Assembly: GCA_029932915.1 (NCBI GenBank)
Contig: JAOZPE010000001.1
Span: forward strand, 1 to 32,221
Source: Candidatus Krumholzibacteriia bacterium
GTDB lineage: Bacteria; Krumholzibacteriota; Krumholzibacteriia; JAJRXK01
DNA: 32,221 nucleotides
Direction of reading: 5' to 3'
The notes beneath the pieces are model-generated. The model was not told the DNA's origin and did no database searches. It worked only from the letters and a program-made list of their open reading frames with translations. A program made the translations under genes and the position numbers. Of this stretch, positions 11,352 to 19,794 are shown piece after piece; within the stretch, counting starts at the first letter, position 1, and each line of letters starts with the position of its first letter.

Positions 11352-14300
11352 TCACCTGCCGCGCGGGTAGGGAGGCCGCGGCGGCCACGGCTTCTCCTGC
11401 TTCAGCTCCTGGAGGATCACCTCGACGGCCTTCTCCAGTTGGGGATCGCGTCCCTTCGCCACCAGGTCGGGACGGTTGTCCACCTCGATGTCCGGATCGA
11501 CGCCGTGGTTCTCGACGATCCACTCGCCTCCGTTGGCCGGTGTCCAGAACGCGATCTCCGGGGCGGTCACCCGGCCGCCGTCGATCAGCGGGATCTGGCG
11601 CGAGATGCCCACCAGTCCGCCCCAGGTGCGCATGCCGATGACCGGTCCGATTCGCTCCTGCTGGAAGTACCAGGGGAAGGCGTCGCCGCCGCTGCCGGCG
11701 AACTCGTTGGCGATGAGCACCTTCGGCCCGTAGATGGTGCGCGGCGGCCAGGGGGTGTCCTCACCGTTGCGGGGGCTGATGAAGTTCAGCAGTCCCTTCT
11801 TGAGCTTGTTGGTGTAGAAGTCGGGAATCATGCCGCCGGCGTTGAAGCGTTCGTCGACGATGAGGGCCTTCTTGAGCACCTGCCCCTGCAGGTACTTGTC
11901 GAACTCCCTCAGGCCGGCGATCGAGGTGTTCGGCACGTGCATGTATCCGACCTTGCCGTCGGTGGCCTTCTCCACGAAGGCCCGCTTGCTCTCCACCCAG
12001 TCCAGGTAGCGCAGACCCCGCTCGCTGGTGATGGTGGTCACGAGGATCTCGTGCGCGCCGTCGCGGCTGGGCTTGTCGTTGACCAGCAGGTTCACCTCGC
12101 GCTCGCCCTTGCCCTGGAAGTAGGCGTAGGGATTCGCGTCACCAGGGATCTCCACTCCGTCGACGGCGATGAGATAGTCGCCTTCGGCCACCTTCAGACC
12201 GGGCTGGGCGAGGGGGGCCAGGCGGTCCTCGTCCCAGTCCTCACCGCGGTAGATGCGGGCGATCCTCCAGTACTTCTCTCCACCGGCGAAATCGACGCCC
12301 AGCAAGCCCACGCTGACCCGCTTGCCATGGGGAAGGTCGCCGCCGCCCACGTAGGAGTGCGAGGTGGCCAGCTCACCGATGAGCTCGCCGATGAGGTAGT
12401 TGAGATCGTTGCGATGGGCCACCCACGGCAGCAGCTTCGCGTAGCGCTCGCCGATCTTCTTCCAGTCCTTGCCGCCCATGTCCGGGTCCCAGAAGAAGTC
12501 GCGCTCGATGCGCCAGGCCTCGTGGAAGATCTGCGCCCACTCCTGGCGGTAGTCCACCCGCGCGGAGAGACCGGAGAAGTCGAGCGTGCCGTCCCCGGGC
12601 TTCTGGCCCTTGGCCGCGTCGACGATGGCGTAGGATCCCTTGGCAGAGCGGTAGAGCAGCTTCTTGCCCTCGGCATCGAGCATGAAAGCGCTGATCTCGC
12701 CGAGGACGGTGTTCTCCTCCCGCTCGTCCATGTCGAAGACCTTCAGCTCGAACCCCCGGGGCGCGTCGGGCCGGGCCGCCTGCTGCGACTCGAAGGCGAT
12801 GCTCCCGTAGAAGAGCTTGCCCTTGCCTGCCTGCAGGTTGGTGTAGCTTCCCGCGGGGACGGGCAGGGCCACCACCCGGGCGGAGATGCCCTCGAGGTCG
12901 ACCACGATGGGTTCGACGCCTTCATCCCCTTCGTCCTCGTCCTTCCCGGCCTTGTCGTCCTTCCCGTCCTTCTTCCCGCTGTCCTTCTTCGCGTCGTCCT
13001 TCTTCGCCGCGCCGTCGTCCTCTTCTCCTTCCTCGTCGCTCTTGGGCGCGAAGGGAGAAGGCTCGCTGCGGTCGAGGATCACGGCGAAGAGGCCGTCGGT
13101 CTGGTAGTAGCCGAAGTGCCAGTCCAGGGCGTCCCCGCTGGGGTAGAAGGAGCGCGACGAGCCGAAGTACAGGTACTTGCCATTCAGGTCGAAGGTGGGC
13201 TGGAAGTCGTTGTAGAAGCCGTCGGTGACCCGGCTCTTCGAATGGTCCTGCTCCGACCACAGCCAGATCTCCTGGTTGCCGTAGCTCTCGTTTCTCTCGT
13301 AGGCGAGCCAACGGCTGTCCGGTGACCACGAGGGGTTGGACACCCCGCCCCGTATCGGCGAGGAGTCGACGAGGACGCGCTTCTTCGAGTCGACATCGAC
13401 GCACCACAGGCGGGTCATGCTGTCCCAGTAGACGATCCTGCTTCCGTCGGGCGAGAAGATCATGCCGAAGGGATAGGCCTGATCCTTGGTGTCGATGAGC
13501 TTGGTCTCCTCGCCGCCCTTCTGGTCCTGAAGGAAGATCGACCATTCACCGCCGCGGTCGCTGAAGTAGGCGATGCGATCGCCGGAGGGCGACCACACTG
13601 CGTCGCGCTCGAAGACCCCGCTGCTGTGGGTGAGCTGACGGGTGGGCCCGTCCTCGGCCGGAACGGTGAAGATCTCACCGCGCGCCTCCACCACCACCCG
13701 CTTGGCGTGGGGGCTGATGGAGACCGAGTGGATGTTCTTCTTCAACGGGATCGTCTTGGGCCGGGCCACCAGCAGTTCACTGCGCACGGAGATGGACACC
13801 GGGTGTTCCTTCCGGGTCTTCAGGTCGAAGACGTGCAGGATGCCGCCGTTCTCGAAGACGATCGCGCCGGGGCCCAGGGCGGGCCACTTCACGTCGAACT
13901 CGGTGAAGTGGGTGAGCTGTTCGGCCGACTTCTCGCCGGGCTTCCAGCGCCACAGGTTCAAGTGACGATCGCGATCGGAGGCGAAGTAGATGCCCGTCTC
14001 GTCCCACATGGGCCAGAAGTCGTTGGCCTCGGTGCGCGGAACCTCCTCGTAGCTCTCGTCCTTCAGGTTGAACAGGGCCACGTAGCCGGTGCGCCCTCCC
14101 CGGTAGCGCTTCCAGGTGCGGGTCTCCCGCGCGCGCGGGTCGTAGGCGATCGATGTGCCATCGGGCGAGTAGGAGGCCGGTCCACCGTGGGGGATGGGCA
14201 GCATCTCGGGCATTCCGCCGCCGTCGACTTGGATCTCGAAGTAGCGGGGATAGCGTGCGGGCGCGCTGTAGCGGGGCGACAGGAACAGGATCTTCTTGCC

Positions 14301-14663
14301 GTCGGGACTCCAGTCGGCCACCAGGTCCCAGGAGGGGTGGAAGGTGAGACGCCGCGGCGTGCCTCCTTCGGCCGGTATGACGTAGACATCGCTGTTGCCG
14401 TCGTACGAGGCGGTGTAGGCCACCCACTTCCCGTCGGGGGAGAAGTGGGGAAGGATCTCCTCGCCCTCGTGACTGGTGAGACGCCGGGCGTCGCCTCCTC
14501 CACGGGGAGCGATCCATAGATCGCCGGCGTAGACGAAGACGATCTCATCGGCGGAGATGTCCGGGTAGCGGAGGAGTCTGGTTCCGGAATCGGCCGCCTC
14601 GGCGGCGGTGACCGCGGTCACCAGCAGGGTGAGCAACAACAGGGAGATGACACGTTCTTTCAC
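11352..14663 (-). CDS. Tricorn-like serine protease, peptidase family S41B, exported
   Basis: The 1103-residue product has a signal peptide (SLLLLTLLVTAVTAAEA) and then two beta-propeller regions with repeated SPDGKWVAY-like motifs. A PDZ-like part follows (VAEGDYLIAVDGVEIPGD) and then the S41 catalytic core. The tricorn catalytic residues are present at matching spacing: His769 (ELATSHSY), nucleophile Ser991 (EFAGSGGDAFPWYF) and Glu1051 (WIVENHGVDPDIEV). It probably degrades peptides in the periplasm. A hydrophilic Lys/Asp/Glu/Gly-rich insert (about residues 540-585) separates the two propeller parts. The start is GTG 14663, which gives a clean signal peptide. The frame is open 27 codons further upstream but that part looks non-coding, and the ribosome-binding site is weak. 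A 163-base gap with no clear promoter separates it from the upstream peptidase gene. Confidence 0.92.
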   Translation of the reverse strand: MKERVISLLLLTLLVTAVTAAEAADSGTRLLRYPDISADEIVFVYAGDLWIAPRGGGDARRLTSHEGEEILPHFSPDGKWVAYTASYDGNSDVYVIPAEGGTPRRLTFHPSWDLVADWSPDGKKILFLSPRYSAPARYPRYFEIQVDGGGMPEMLPIPHGGPASYSPDGTSIAYDPRARETRTWKRYRGGRTGYVALFNLKDESYEEVPRTEANDFWPMWDETGIYFASDRDRHLNLWRWKPGEKSAEQLTHFTEFDVKWPALGPGAIVFENGGILHVFDLKTRKEHPVSISVRSELLVARPKTIPLKKNIHSVSISPHAKRVVVEARGEIFTVPAEDGPTRQLTHSSGVFERDAVWSPSGDRIAYFSDRGGEWSIFLQDQKGGEETKLIDTKDQAYPFGMIFSPDGSRIVYWDSMTRLWCVDVDSKKRVLVDSSPIRGGVSNPSWSPDSRWLAYERNESYGNQEIWLWSEQDHSKSRVTDGFYNDFQPTFDLNGKYLYFGSSRSFYPSGDALDWHFGYYQTDGLFAVILDRSEPSPFAPKSDEEGEEDDGAAKKDDAKKDSGKKDGKDDKAGKDEDEGDEGVEPIVVDLEGISARVVALPVPAGSYTNLQAGKGKLFYGSIAFESQQAARPDAPRGFELKVFDMDEREENTVLGEISAFMLDAEGKKLLYRSAKGSYAIVDAAKGQKPGDGTLDFSGLSARVDYRQEWAQIFHEAWRIERDFFWDPDMGGKDWKKIGERYAKLLPWVAHRNDLNYLIGELIGELATSHSYVGGGDLPHGKRVSVGLLGVDFAGGEKYWRIARIYRGEDWDEDRLAPLAQPGLKVAEGDYLIAVDGVEIPGDANPYAYFQGKGEREVNLLVNDKPSRDGAHEILVTTITSERGLRYLDWVESKRAFVEKATDGKVGYMHVPNTSIAGLREFDKYLQGQVLKKALIVDERFNAGGMIPDFYTNKLKKGLLNFISPRNGEDTPWPPRTIYGPKVLIANEFAGSGGDAFPWYFQQERIGPVIGMRTWGGLVGISRQIPLIDGGRVTAPEIAFWTPANGGEWIVENHGVDPDIEVDNRPDLVAKGRDPQLEKAVEVILQELKQEKPWPPRPPYPRGR

Positions 14664-14826
14664 GGCCTCGACGCTTCCTTGGGTTGGAGGGTTGGGTTGA
14701 AGGGAAGAGAACGAAGTGCGGATGGAAAAGGGCCGCAGCCGCACCGACTACGGGGAATCGCCCCGAAGAGTTTCTCCCGCCGGTCCCGATTTTCCCAGAA
14801 CAACTCCGCTCGCCTCGTCCCAAAGG

Positions 14827-17800
14827 CTAGAACCCTCGCTCGCGTACCCGCTGAAGGTCGAGGCCGGCGGCGGTGAAGCATCGACGCAGGGCGTCCTCGT
14901 CGAGGACCGGCGGCAGGGGCGTCGCCGGATCGGCCAGGCGCCGGAGGGCGTCGGCCAGCAGGGCGGCCGAGCGCGCCAGGCCCGCCGGATCGAGTTCCTC
15001 CAGGCGGTCGGCCGCGGTGTGGATCCGATCCAGGGCGCCGGGGCTGCGATGGCAGGCCAGGGTGAAGGAGGGCAGGCCGGTCAGCACGAAGGGCATGTGG
15101 TCGCTGTAGAGGTCGAGGATCTCCTGGACCCCGCCATCGAGCTTCCACCGGCGGAACTCGAGCAGGCTCGCCCGCAGGGGGGCACGCAGGGAACGGCCGC
15201 AGTGGATGACGAAACCGGCCGGATCCTCGGGCATCTCCAGATTGACCACGAGCGACGGCAGGGCCTCCTCGCCCCGCTGGGCCGCCTCCAGGTAGGCACG
15301 GCTACCCTCCAATCCCCGTTCCTCGCCGGTGAACACCACGAAGCGCAGGGGACGGGTGGAGGACTCCCTCAGGCGGGCATCGGCGGCGAGCCGGCGCGCG
15401 GTCTCCAGCAGGACGGCGACGCCGGCCGCGTTGTCCAGTGCCCCCTGGCCCAGGGACCAGGCGTCCAGGTGGGCGCTCACGAGGATGGGCCGTTCGCCCG
15501 GGCCCAGGGGCCGCAGGTCGGCGATACCGTTGTGCGAGGAAACTTCGATCCAGGCCCCTCCGGCGCCCTTCGCGGAGGCGATCTCCAGACTCACGGCCGC
15601 GCTCGTCCGCAGGGCCTCCAGCAGGGGCCGGCCCTGCGCGGTGCTGAACACCGGCAGGGGGGAGGGAGCCTTCCATCCCACCACGCCCTGGACCTCCTCG
15701 CCCTCCGCGCCCAGGAGGATCAGGGCGGCCGCCCCGGCTCGCCGCGCCGCCGCCACCTTCTCCAGGCGGTGGATGGGACGCGCTTCGGTCGGGGGGCTGC
15801 CCTCGCGGGCCAGGAGGATGCGGCCTGGGGCGAGCACGGCATTCGTCACGATCTCGGCCGGGGTGCCCCAACCCACCTCCAGCAGGCGGTGGGTGCCGGT
15901 GAGCTCCCCTCCGCTGCCGGCGAGCGCGTGCAGCATGAGGGTCCGGGTGCGGCCCGATGCATCGGTCCATCGCGCCGGCAGAGCTTCGATTTCCCAGCGG
16001 TGGGCGCGTACCGGCTGGAGATGCCAGTCGCAGCCGAGCGCCTCCATCCTCTGGCCCACCCACTGCAGGGCATGGCGGTAGCCCTCGGTGCCGGGCACCC
16101 GTGGCTCCCCCTCGCACAGCGCCTGCAGGGTGGTGGAGACCGAGACCGTGGCGTCTTCGCTCCGCAAGGTGGCGTCGGATGGTGTCGCTGCCGCTTCGGC
16201 CCGGGCGGCGGTCTTCGACCCGGCCGGGGCTGCTGTGGCCTCGCTTCCGTCCGCGCTCGGGGGCAGGGCCACCGCGCCCAGCACGAGGAGAAGGCTGAGC
16301 AGCAGCTCGACGATTCCGCGCGTGCCGTCCACCCTCAGGCGCCGGGCCCGGGACAGGCGCTGCCGGGCCCGGGGCAGGATCACCGCGGGCAGATGGTGCT
16401 CACGGGCCAGGACCGCGGCGTGTCCCAGCAGGCTCCCGCTCTCGCAGACCAGGGCCGCGCAGCGCTCGAAGACCAGGGCGTCGGCGGGCACCACCGAGGG
16501 CACGACGAGGACCTCTCCCGGCCGGGGTCCGCCTTCGGCCTGGGCCGAGGGCAGGGAACGCACCGGGCCTTCGGCCGTTCCCGGCGAGAGGGGGAAGCCC
16601 ACCACGCGTTCCCCGGCCTCCGCCGGCGGCGCCCATTCGGGATGCCGGCGGGCGAAGGAGGCCTCCCAGCGCAGCAGGAGCCTCTCGCCCCGCGTCCGCG
16701 CCCGCCGCCATCGTTCCTCCCCGGGCGCTTCGATCATCGCTTCCACGTCCTCGGGCAGCAGATCGAGGATCTCCGCCTGCTCCGCCTCCGGGTGCAGCCA
16801 GCCCTGGAGATCGAGCGCGGCGGCCCGGAAGAGGGCGTAGGCCCGTCCGAGCAGTTCGTCGTCGTCCTCGAGGGCGGCCAGGGCCCTGCCGGCCACGAGC
16901 CGCCAGCTCTGCCGCTCGTCCGCTTTGGACGGCGATGCGCGAGGTGGTGTCGGTTCCGAGGGAGGAAGCCCACGGGCCCGCCTCTCCACTTCGGCGATCA
17001 GCGGTGTGGGGTCTTCACTCCAGGGGACGGCCCGTCCGTCCCAGCCGCCCGGGGCGTGGTGGCCATGGCGGCTGAGGAAGTCCTCCAGCGCCTGCTCTCG
17101 CGCCGGATCATCGTGGGGATGATCGGCCCAGGATCGGGCCAGCGCATCCAGATCCCGTTTCCTGCGCTCGGCGGCCGTCTCCGGCAGGGGCGGTGGCTCG
17201 GTGTCCCCCAGGCGCTGCAGGGCCTCGAGCAGACGGTGGGTGAGCCGGCGCAGACGGTGACTGCTGCCGTCGTAGTAGTGCTCCTGCCAGCGCAGCCAGG
17301 CGGTGGTGAAGGGCCCCCAGCTCGAAGGTGCGGGCAGCGGATCGTAGCGGCGGCGCAGCGAATCGAGGCCCGTCTGGAGGCGGGGCAGGTGTTCCTTCTC
17401 CCACTGTTGGAGAGCGTGGTCGACCGCGTGCGCGGCGGCCCGGGCCTCGGCCTCCGCGCTCGGCTCGCCGGCCGCCCGGCCTTTCTCCTCGTCCTCCGGC
17501 TCGACGCGGTCGTGCCAGCGCCCGTCGATCAGGCGGGAGGGATGGCGGGGTCCCTTGGCACGGATCCAGCGCAGGAAGAGTCCGGCCAGCAGGGGGCAGA
17601 GCGGTGCCGAGGCGTGCTCGGCGTCCAGTTTCCAGCTCTCGTCCCGATCGCTCTCGAAGAGAGGGAAATCGGCCAGGGGGGGCTCTTCGCGGGGGGGTGG
17701 CGGGGCGGCCTGGACGACCGGGCGCCGCTGGAGCAGCCGGGCCCGTCCTCCTTCCACGCCGATCTCCAGCAGCCATGGGCCCGTGCGGTCACGAAGGGCC

Positions 17801-18405
17801 GCTCGCGCCAGCGACAGGATCTCGCTCCACCCCTTCCCCGCAATCTCCTTCGCGCTCGCTTCTGCCGCTTTGGCCGGAACCTGCAGCCAGAGGGGCAGAC
17901 GGCCCCGCGTGGTGGTGCGCCATCCCTCCACCAGCAGGAATTCCGCATCGCCTCCCTGGACCGTGCACCAGGCATCGAGTTCGAGCCGGGGCTGGGCCAG
18001 GACGGCGAGGGACAGTTCCTCACCGGGAGGGACGCCCACCATCTCGCGCAGTTTCTCGTCCCGTATGGTGGAGGCCATGCGGCGCAGTGCCCGTACGACG
18101 GCGTCCTCGCGGGCCGCGCAGGAGACGGTGGGGAACAGACCGGCCGCGCTGGAGGAAGGACGGTCCTCCCAGGGGGAGGATGAGCGCAGGAGCAGACGGT
18201 CGGCCTCGGGGATCGAGCGCAGGAGTTCAGCCGCCGCTTCCCGGGCGCGTGCTTCACTCCCGGCCAGCTCCGGGAGCGCCTCGGTGTCGAGGACCCACGA
18301 GGGCGGAACGGGCAGGCCTTCTGCGAGGGCCAGTGCCAGCTCCGCCGCCTTGCCGCCGTAGCGTTCCACTTCATGGGGGTCGATGGCGTCGAGGGCGGTC
18401 CACAT
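14827..18405 (-). CDS. Fusion of a rifampicin-phosphotransferase-like dikinase and an M28 zinc peptidase
   Basis: One uninterrupted frame of 1192 residues has two unrelated halves. Residues 1-690 look like a PEP-synthase / rifampicin-phosphotransferase type enzyme. The ATP-grasp part has GGKAAEL (Lys19), LLLRSSSPWED (Arg74, Glu80, Asp81) and LLQRRP (Gln226, Arg228). A middle domain of unknown specificity (about 245-600) follows, then a swivel domain with the phospho-accepting His662 in GSLLGHAAVLARE. Residues 698-714 are hydrophobic (IVELLLSLLLVLGAVAL). Residues 755-1192 are an M28 peptidase with metal ligands His979, Asp991, Glu1029, Glu1057 and His1129 and the catalytic Glu1028. ATG 18405 has GGAGG 6 bases upstream; the GTG at 18411 would touch it. 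The M23 gene ends 21 bases upstream. No well-placed ribosome-binding site supports a separate internal start (GTG 16332). A lost stop codon or an assembly error remains possible. Confidence 0.85.
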   Translation of the reverse strand: MWTALDAIDPHEVERYGGKAAELALALAEGLPVPPSWVLDTEALPELAGSEARAREAAAELLRSIPEADRLLLRSSSPWEDRPSSSAAGLFPTVSCAAREDAVVRALRRMASTIRDEKLREMVGVPPGEELSLAVLAQPRLELDAWCTVQGGDAEFLLVEGWRTTTRGRLPLWLQVPAKAAEASAKEIAGKGWSEILSLARAALRDRTGPWLLEIGVEGGRARLLQRRPVVQAAPPPPREEPPLADFPLFESDRDESWKLDAEHASAPLCPLLAGLFLRWIRAKGPRHPSRLIDGRWHDRVEPEDEEKGRAAGEPSAEAEARAAAHAVDHALQQWEKEHLPRLQTGLDSLRRRYDPLPAPSSWGPFTTAWLRWQEHYYDGSSHRLRRLTHRLLEALQRLGDTEPPPLPETAAERRKRDLDALARSWADHPHDDPAREQALEDFLSRHGHHAPGGWDGRAVPWSEDPTPLIAEVERRARGLPPSEPTPPRASPSKADERQSWRLVAGRALAALEDDDELLGRAYALFRAAALDLQGWLHPEAEQAEILDLLPEDVEAMIEAPGEERWRRARTRGERLLLRWEASFARRHPEWAPPAEAGERVVGFPLSPGTAEGPVRSLPSAQAEGGPRPGEVLVVPSVVPADALVFERCAALVCESGSLLGHAAVLAREHHLPAVILPRARQRLSRARRLRVDGTRGIVELLLSLLLVLGAVALPPSADGSEATAAPAGSKTAARAEAAATPSDATLRSEDATVSVSTTLQALCEGEPRVPGTEGYRHALQWVGQRMEALGCDWHLQPVRAHRWEIEALPARWTDASGRTRTLMLHALAGSGGELTGTHRLLEVGWGTPAEIVTNAVLAPGRILLAREGSPPTEARPIHRLEKVAAARRAGAAALILLGAEGEEVQGVVGWKAPSPLPVFSTAQGRPLLEALRTSAAVSLEIASAKGAGGAWIEVSSHNGIADLRPLGPGERPILVSAHLDAWSLGQGALDNAAGVAVLLETARRLAADARLRESSTRPLRFVVFTGEERGLEGSRAYLEAAQRGEEALPSLVVNLEMPEDPAGFVIHCGRSLRAPLRASLLEFRRWKLDGGVQEILDLYSDHMPFVLTGLPSFTLACHRSPGALDRIHTAADRLEELDPAGLARSAALLADALRRLADPATPLPPVLDEDALRRCFTAAGLDLQRVRERGF

Positions 18406-18426
18406 GGTCACCCTCCCCGGGGGAGA

Positions 18427-19794
18427 TCAGCGTCCGGCGGCGTCGGCCTCGGTGGTCTGTCGTTCGAGGACCAGGGTCTCGTCACGGCTGTCGGCGATGC
18501 GCTCGAGTTCGGCCTGCAGTTCGTCGCGCCGTTGGATGAAGCGGGCCATCCGCTCGGCCTCGATCGGGGCGGCCGGGGGAAGGTCGAGCTTGCGTGGATT
18601 CAACCACTTGCCGTTGTGCTTCACCCGGTAGTCCAGATGCGGGGCGGTCGCCGTACCGGTCATGCCCACGTAGCCGATGAGATCGCCCTGTTTGACCTTC
18701 TGGCCCACGTGCAGCCCGCGCGCGAAACGCGAGAGGTGGAGGTAGTAGGTCTCGTAACCGTTTCCGTGACGCAGGTGCACGTAGTTGCCGTTGCCCCGCC
18801 GGCGTTCCCGGTTGACGACGGTGCCATTGGCGGTGGCGTACACCGGCGTGCCCGTCGGAGCCGCGTAGTCCACCCCGTAGTGGGGCCGGTAGACGTGATA
18901 CACCGGATGCAGACGGTGCAGTGAGAAATTGCTGCTGATGCGGCTGTATTTCAGGGGAGCGCGCAGGAACTGCTTCTCCAGACTGTTTCCGTTCTCGTCG
19001 TAGTAGGCGGGGAAACCCAGCTTGTTCTCGAAGAGGAAGGCCGAGTACTCATGACCCCGGTTGACGAAGCGCGCGGCGAGGATGCGTCCGTCCCGGACGC
19101 GGCGTCCCTCGCGGGTGAACTCCTCGTAGAGCAGGGTGAAGCGGTCGCCCTTGCGCAGGTCGCGGAAGAAGTCGATGTCCCAGCCGAGGATCTCGCTCAA
19201 CTGGGTGGCCAACTGCGGATCGGCGCCCTCTTCCACGAGTGCCTCGAATAGGCTCGACTTGATCTCCCCCTTCACGCCGCGCACGGTCCGCTCCAACTGA
19301 TAGGCGCCGATCTCGGTCTGCCACGACGAGTCGCTCCGGGTGGCGATGAGGTAGTGCTCGGCGTCGAGTTCGGCATGGAAGGCAGTGAGCGCGCCGTCCT
19401 CGTTGCGCTCGATCCGGAAGACGTCGCCCGACTGGACGCGCCGGAAATTCGAGTAGGGCTTGCAGGCCTTCACCAACTGCATCACGTCTTCGTGGGAGAC
19501 GCCGGCGCCGGTCATGGCCACGTAGAAGGACTGGCCGCGTCCGATCTCCACGCTCTCCCACCGGTCGCCGTCACCGGCTGCGGCTCCTTCGTCCGTCAGG
19601 GAGTCGACGGTCTCGGAGGTGGCCGGTGCCGAGATCCCATCATCCGGCGAGGGGGCCTCTTGCTCCACCCGGGCGAGTTCGGTGGAAGCGTCCGGCTTGG
19701 ATCCGACTTCCGGGGAGGGGCCGAAACCGCCCAGCCGGGCGTAGATCCAGCCGGTGGCGATCAGGACCACGAGGATACCCAGATAGCGTCGCAT
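18427..19794 (-). CDS. M23 family peptidoglycan metalloendopeptidase, Csd3/MepM-like
   Basis: The 455-residue product has an N-terminal membrane anchor (LGILVVLIATGWIYA), a disordered acidic linker (about 25-75), an OapA/Csd3-type regulatory region (about 78-280) and the M23 catalytic domain (about 283-400). It should cut peptide cross-links in the periplasmic murein. His305 and Asp309 (HYGVDYA) are zinc ligands, and His353 (YLHLS) and His386 (APHLDYR) complete the active site. The usual HxH motif reads HLD here, so Asp388 stands where the third zinc-ligand His is expected. A charged coiled-coil-like tail follows (about 408-450). ATG 19794 has GGAG 5-6 bases upstream. The leader carries an 18-base palindrome. 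The dikinase-M28 gene follows 21 bases after the stop, so the two probably form one operon. Confidence 0.92.
   Translation of the reverse strand: MRRYLGILVVLIATGWIYARLGGFGPSPEVGSKPDASTELARVEQEAPSPDDGISAPATSETVDSLTDEGAAAGDGDRWESVEIGRGQSFYVAMTGAGVSHEDVMQLVKACKPYSNFRRVQSGDVFRIERNEDGALTAFHAELDAEHYLIATRSDSSWQTEIGAYQLERTVRGVKGEIKSSLFEALVEEGADPQLATQLSEILGWDIDFFRDLRKGDRFTLLYEEFTREGRRVRDGRILAARFVNRGHEYSAFLFENKLGFPAYYDENGNSLEKQFLRAPLKYSRISSNFSLHRLHPVYHVYRPHYGVDYAAPTGTPVYATANGTVVNRERRRGNGNYVHLRHGNGYETYYLHLSRFARGLHVGQKVKQGDLIGYVGMTGTATAPHLDYRVKHNGKWLNPRKLDLPPAAPIEAERMARFIQRRDELQAELERIADSRDETLVLERQTTEADAAGR

Follow-up and report, generated by a model that had tools for sequence, protein, structure and literature searches.

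Why should a dikinase that needs ATP and a peptidase of exported type be encoded in a single reading frame, and what would become of the resulting chain? The question is raised by a locus of Candidatus Krumholzibacteriia bacterium (assembly GCA_029932915.1, contig JAOZPE010000001.1), which was analysed within a stretch of 32,221 nucleotides, the window (positions 1 to 32,221 of the contig). The answer favored here, with somewhat better than even confidence, is a lineage-specific in-frame fusion of two distinct genes, one for a rifampicin-phosphotransferase (RPH)-type dikinase and one for an exported M28 aminopeptidase; its product would probably place its two ends on opposite sides of the membrane. 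The features on which this reading is built are collected in Table 1.

Table 1. Features of the fused frame and of its neighbors, in window positions
Feature	Positions	Strand	Remarks
Upstream gene, M23 peptidase with Csd3_N2 domain	18427..19794	minus	same neighbor precedes sister dikinases
Shine-Dalgarno-like CGGGGAGGG	18411..18419	minus	5 nt spacing to ATG 18405
Fused ORF, 1192 codons + stop	14827..18405	minus	ATG at 18405; alternative GTG at 18411; ~129 kDa
ATP-grasp region	17707..18405	minus	P0001 residues 3-235
Central substrate-binding region	16612..17649	minus	RPH-like in C-terminal part
Swivel (PEP-utilisers mobile) domain	16300..16605	minus	last strand ends VELL, aligned with IEIL at RPH C-terminus
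Phospho-acceptor His codon	16420..16422	minus	His662 from ATG; 664 in P0001
Hydrophobic run LLLSLLLVLGAVALPP	16258..16305	minus	M28 signal-peptide core, probable signal anchor; Arg-rich swivel tail before it
N-terminal part of M28 protein	15532..16239	minus	includes weak PA-domain match 15706-15831
Peptidase M28 catalytic domain	14950..15525	minus	five metal ligands + catalytic Glu
Downstream gene, tricorn-type protease (PD40, Tricorn_C1, PDZ, S41)	11352..14744	minus	probable start GTG 14663, with signal peptide

The frame itself is not in doubt. It runs on the minus strand, a point on which the earlier note was silent. Its stop codon is 14827-14829, its ATG is preceded by CGGGGAGGG, a strong Shine-Dalgarno sequence (-11.5 kcal/mol), and an alternative GTG start lies two codons farther 5'. 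(A word on numbering: residues of the fused protein, P0001, are counted from that GTG, i.e., the ATG-based number plus 2, except where the ATG is named.) Codon-position base composition stays even from end to end of the frame, junction included, and the plus strand across 14827-18405 has no matching protein. The earlier note on this DNA had described one 1192-residue frame with His662, His979, Asp991, Glu1028/1029, Glu1057 and His1129, and all of these residues are found at those numbers when counted from the ATG. It had also proposed a search with three Pfam models. Two of them match the fused protein, the M28 model (PF04389, E 3e-28) and the swivel-domain model (PF00391, E 2e-12); the ATP-grasp model PF01326 (PPDK_N) matches weakly, at 24 bits under its cut-off of 27.

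What kind of enzyme is the first half? K21, R76, T95, E216, Q228 and R230 are the counterparts of ATP-site residues of RPH and PEP synthase; the first three correspond to RPH K22, R117 and T136, which RPH activity requires and which, together with E297, have been given roles in the RPH ATP site (PMC4844700). K21, R76, E216, Q228, R230 and H664 are invariant in the four dikinases compared (the fusion and three sister genes, to be described below), and T95 is Ser in the three sisters. Opposite the catalytic Glu667 of RPH the alignment places Glu515, and the Glu is conserved; Arg666 of RPH has no counterpart, the fusion having Leu there and the sisters other residues that are not basic, leaving the Arg-Glu pair (R666, E667) incomplete. 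A profile of the four dikinases matches the central and swivel domains of RPH structures 5fbs/5hv2 continuously (E 4e-17), ending at RPH residue 866 of 867, and the order of domains is that of RPH: ATP-grasp, substrate-binding, C-terminal swivel (profile against 5fbs). Against PEP synthases, the ATP-grasp and swivel parts of the profile match; in PEP synthase the His sits mid-protein, unlike the RPH order (PMC4844700). The earlier note had spoken of a rifampicin-phosphotransferase/PEP-synthase enzyme: the first designation stands as to kind, and the second is rejected, domain order and C-terminus both matching RPH. RPH itself belongs within a broad family of small-molecule dikinases (PMC12167813). 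On these alignments, the first half is an RPH-type enzyme and a predicted small-molecule dikinase, which would phosphorylate its acceptor at the expense of ATP to give AMP and Pi. Its substrate is probably not rifampin, because its score with the RPH equivalog NF041857 (61.5 bits) is far under the curated cut-off of 999. (An AlphaFold model of this half, made with three sequences, is of low confidence, with a mean pLDDT of 47, and was used for the swivel end only: in it, the final strand of the swivel spans 700-703.)

M28 peptidases of the kind found in the second half are normally exported from the cell. PF04389 matches this half with 99.2 bits against a cut-off of 21.3, and the two-metal ligand set and catalytic Glu are complete (H979, D991, E1028/E1029, E1057 and H1129, in ATG numbering). 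The closest match in the PDB is the aminopeptidase 2ek8, and a PA-like insertion is present. End to end, the half aligns with stand-alone M28 proteins of the phylum (for example, one of 521 aa in genome G026) at ~29-35% identity; nearly every one whose N-terminus is complete starts with a signal, of signal-peptide or lipoprotein type, spaced from the first conserved M28 block about as far as the hydrophobic run of the fusion is. The proposal that the frame carries a complete M28 peptidase of exported type is upheld by the metal ligands and by the signals of these relatives, and the second half is, as judged from the alignments, a complete M28 peptidase from a separate, presumptively exported family. 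Another long M28 frame of the phylum (L030 1-2217, plus strand) has its M28 domain followed by PDZ, and in the ~400 residues in front of the M28 domain Pfam gives no match at the cut-off applied.

The two halves are joined without any linker. RPH ends in ...RINGTEGYIEIL (866 of 867 residues); the dikinase half runs to ...RVDGTRGIVELL and then directly into LSLLLVLGAV, so that the linker has zero residues and the dikinase C-terminus is fully retained. A join exactly at the swivel C-terminus, as had been surmised, is borne out by this alignment to the end of RPH. In hydrophobicity, the segment that had been remarked on there (700-716) does exceed every other part of the protein (19-residue Kyte-Doolittle mean of 2.34; the best window elsewhere reaches 1.50), and it is equivalent to an M28 signal peptide: because stand-alone relatives carry their signals at the same distance, LLLSLLLVLGAVALPP is read as the putative M28 signal sequence, kept in place. 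The 25 residues that precede it have a net charge of +7, and the net charge of the swivel tail is +6 in the fusion as against +1, -5 and +1 in the sisters. A positive flank in this location is suggestive of the inside-facing side of a membrane segment, but the argument from charge is weak, because a second Arg-rich stretch of 25 residues with the same charge (+7) occurs at 567 in the same protein. The hydrophobic core is also short for a membrane anchor (~14-16 residues), and AVA at 713-715 is, by eye, a candidate signal peptidase site. Because the core is short, cleavage of the fused protein by signal peptidase would seem as likely as permanent anchoring.

On the favored reading of a lineage-specific fusion, then, the ribosome would make one chain of ~129 kDa. 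The dikinase would fold in the cytoplasm, use ATP to charge His662 (ATG numbering) and hand the phosphate on to a small molecule; the former M28 signal peptide would serve as an internal signal anchor that carries the M28 domain to the periplasm, from which signal peptidase may or may not release it. The dikinase would thus probably be inside, with the peptidase in the periplasm. The two predicted activities would share expression and membrane location, and the evidence does not indicate a shared substrate. Against this reading stand the single genome (a MAG), the short hydrophobic run, the Shine-Dalgarno-like sequences inside the frame (see below) and the zero-length linker, since a membrane tether of this kind might hinder a swivel domain that has to move between two sites.

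The ancestry of the two halves is separate. The earlier note had asked whether homologues in close relatives are always two genes: in each of the three remaining family members (G001, G002 and G003; Candidatus Krumholzibacteriota; records JAJDAC010000002.1 and JAJRXK010000062.1) the dikinase is a stand-alone gene, which argues against a conserved architecture. The sister proteins end near the swivel C-terminus, with tails of 0 to ~14 residues, and are 36-40% identical to the dikinase half across its whole length. In a search of 80 genomes of the phylum, this dikinase family was confined to the one family of four genomes; the dikinase-M28 fusion was not found in the 79 other genomes, nor in plasmid and phage collections, and a first scan of genome contigs with the whole fused protein as query gave no match. 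A search of the literature likewise found no described fusion of this sort, in keeping with the earlier statement that no protein of such architecture was known.

Synteny tells which state is the derived one. An M23/Csd3-type peptidase gene directly precedes the dikinase on the same strand in all four genomes. Behind the sister dikinases there is never an M28 gene (in two of the three there are amidohydrolases), and in G002 and G003 synteny resumes on the far flank (DUF4340 with neighboring genes, aminotransferase), so that the fused unit sits between blocks that are syntenic with the sisters. By gene order, then, the M28 and tricorn genes are newcomers to this locus, and fusion is the derived condition. 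Besides the tricorn-type protease of this locus, its genome encodes two paralogues of it, and the sisters encode several; in these genomes generally, the M28 and tricorn families are common and numerous. The constant neighborhood of an RPH-like dikinase behind an M23/Csd3-type gene (18427-19794 and 16300-18405, minus strand; L032, L033 and L034) is an observation in its own right, with a possible link to cell-wall recycling.

Is the join real, and is it used? The fusion is known from a single MAG (2.9 Mb in 98 contigs), and elsewhere in the family the dikinase gene stands apart, with no M28 gene adjacent: a false join, in the assembly or its consensus, of genes that are really separate would account for both facts. 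The sequence at the junction makes this unlikely. A one-base indel fails to give two genes, for in the other two frames there is no stop near the swivel end (the next is at codon 855, or there is none) and no start; two overlapping genes in different frames are rejected on the same grounds. One substitution that restores a stop (e.g., in GGA 16315-16317) leaves M28 without a start ahead of or inside its signal peptide, GTGs in the hydrophobic core apart. To obtain two normal genes at this place, two changes or more would be required. The 301-base junction sequence recurs nowhere else in the genome, apart from one 25-base match off the junction, and the contig is syntenic; a simple one-base error does therefore not explain the join, and a misassembly would need two false joins, the unit lying between syntenic blocks. 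The fusion by loss of a stop that the earlier note had offered as an alternative is too simple in its mechanism, because beyond the point where the dikinase would have stopped, no start codon that the M28 half could use is left. Stop, spacer and start must all have been lost, probably through an in-frame deletion. Candidate internal starts for M28 at GTG 694, CTG 703/704 and GTG 677 were rejected for their poor ribosome sites, and GTG 772 was rejected as a start that would drop the signal peptide. GTG 772 (window 16098, minus strand) does have a good ribosome site, the strong Shine-Dalgarno-like CGAGGGGGA; strong sequences of this type occur within the fused frame, and it is possible that such sites yield separate products from it.

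A genuine fusion need not be a useful one. The chain may be made and one of its halves (a tethered dikinase or a mistargeted M28) may no longer serve, or M28 may come mainly from internal initiation, the whole being recent and nearly neutral. The zero-length linker, the lack of relatives with the fusion and the restriction of a fast-evolving dikinase (34-40% identity) to one family speak for this reading. It is nevertheless unlikely: the catalytic residues are intact in both halves, the frame is free of stops with even codon composition along its length, the dikinase half has diverged from its sisters no farther than they have from each other (36-40% against 34-39% identity), and the swivel tail and signal core are without an internal start that has a good ribosome site. 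At the other extreme lies a two-sided enzyme, with phosphorylation in the cytoplasm and trimming in the periplasm serving one pathway, perhaps for peptidoglycan-derived peptides. The M23 gene that always lies ahead of the dikinase, the fusion of that dikinase to a peptidase here and the tricorn protease next to it lend this idea some color; however, the fusion is not conserved, and the M28 and tricorn families are so numerous in these genomes that proximity is weak evidence. It is therefore judged improbable, and the link between phosphorylation and peptide trimming that had been proposed for this protein is not supported. Equal doubt attaches to a membrane-spanning bifunctional enzyme, an ATP-driven dikinase in the cytoplasm with its moving swivel tethered to a periplasmic aminopeptidase, both reactions serving one route by which peptides or cell-wall fragments are taken up or recycled.

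If the lineage-specific fusion is real, it is an instance of a cytoplasmic enzyme caught in the act of being fused to an exported one by way of the latter's signal peptide. It would put to the test whether a signal peptide that follows a large folded domain, instead of heading the chain, still exports its passenger, and whether a swivel works when tethered: the domain that carries the join has to travel, in the course of catalysis, between two sites far apart (PMC4844700). The locus also points to a small uncharacterised family of RPH-like dikinases, always located behind an M23 cell-wall peptidase gene. The architecture is new relative to the collections searched, on the basis of one MAG, and each of its parts has recognizable kin. 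With RPH and the RPH-like dikinases (HpeHI, CreHI, PpsAB) the first half shares domain order, the C-terminal swivel with its phospho-His, ATP-site residues and the C-terminal strand (PMC4844700; PMC12167813), but its ATP-grasp and central regions are shorter, it has no counterpart of Arg666, and an exported peptidase is attached. With PEP synthase and pyruvate phosphate dikinase it has ATP-grasp and swivel domains in common; its swivel is C-terminal instead of mid-protein, and the PEP/pyruvate-binding barrel is missing. The second half shares metal site, PA-like insertion and signal sequence with M28 enzymes that have a PA domain (aminopeptidase 2ek8, YwaD, PGCP-like 3iib), and differs in that its signal sequence is internal, behind 700 dikinase residues, and in that Glu replaces Asp in the NLEM motif. 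The three sister dikinases are orthologues by sequence and by their M23 neighbor, and differ in being unfused and in having other genes (e.g., amidohydrolase) behind them.
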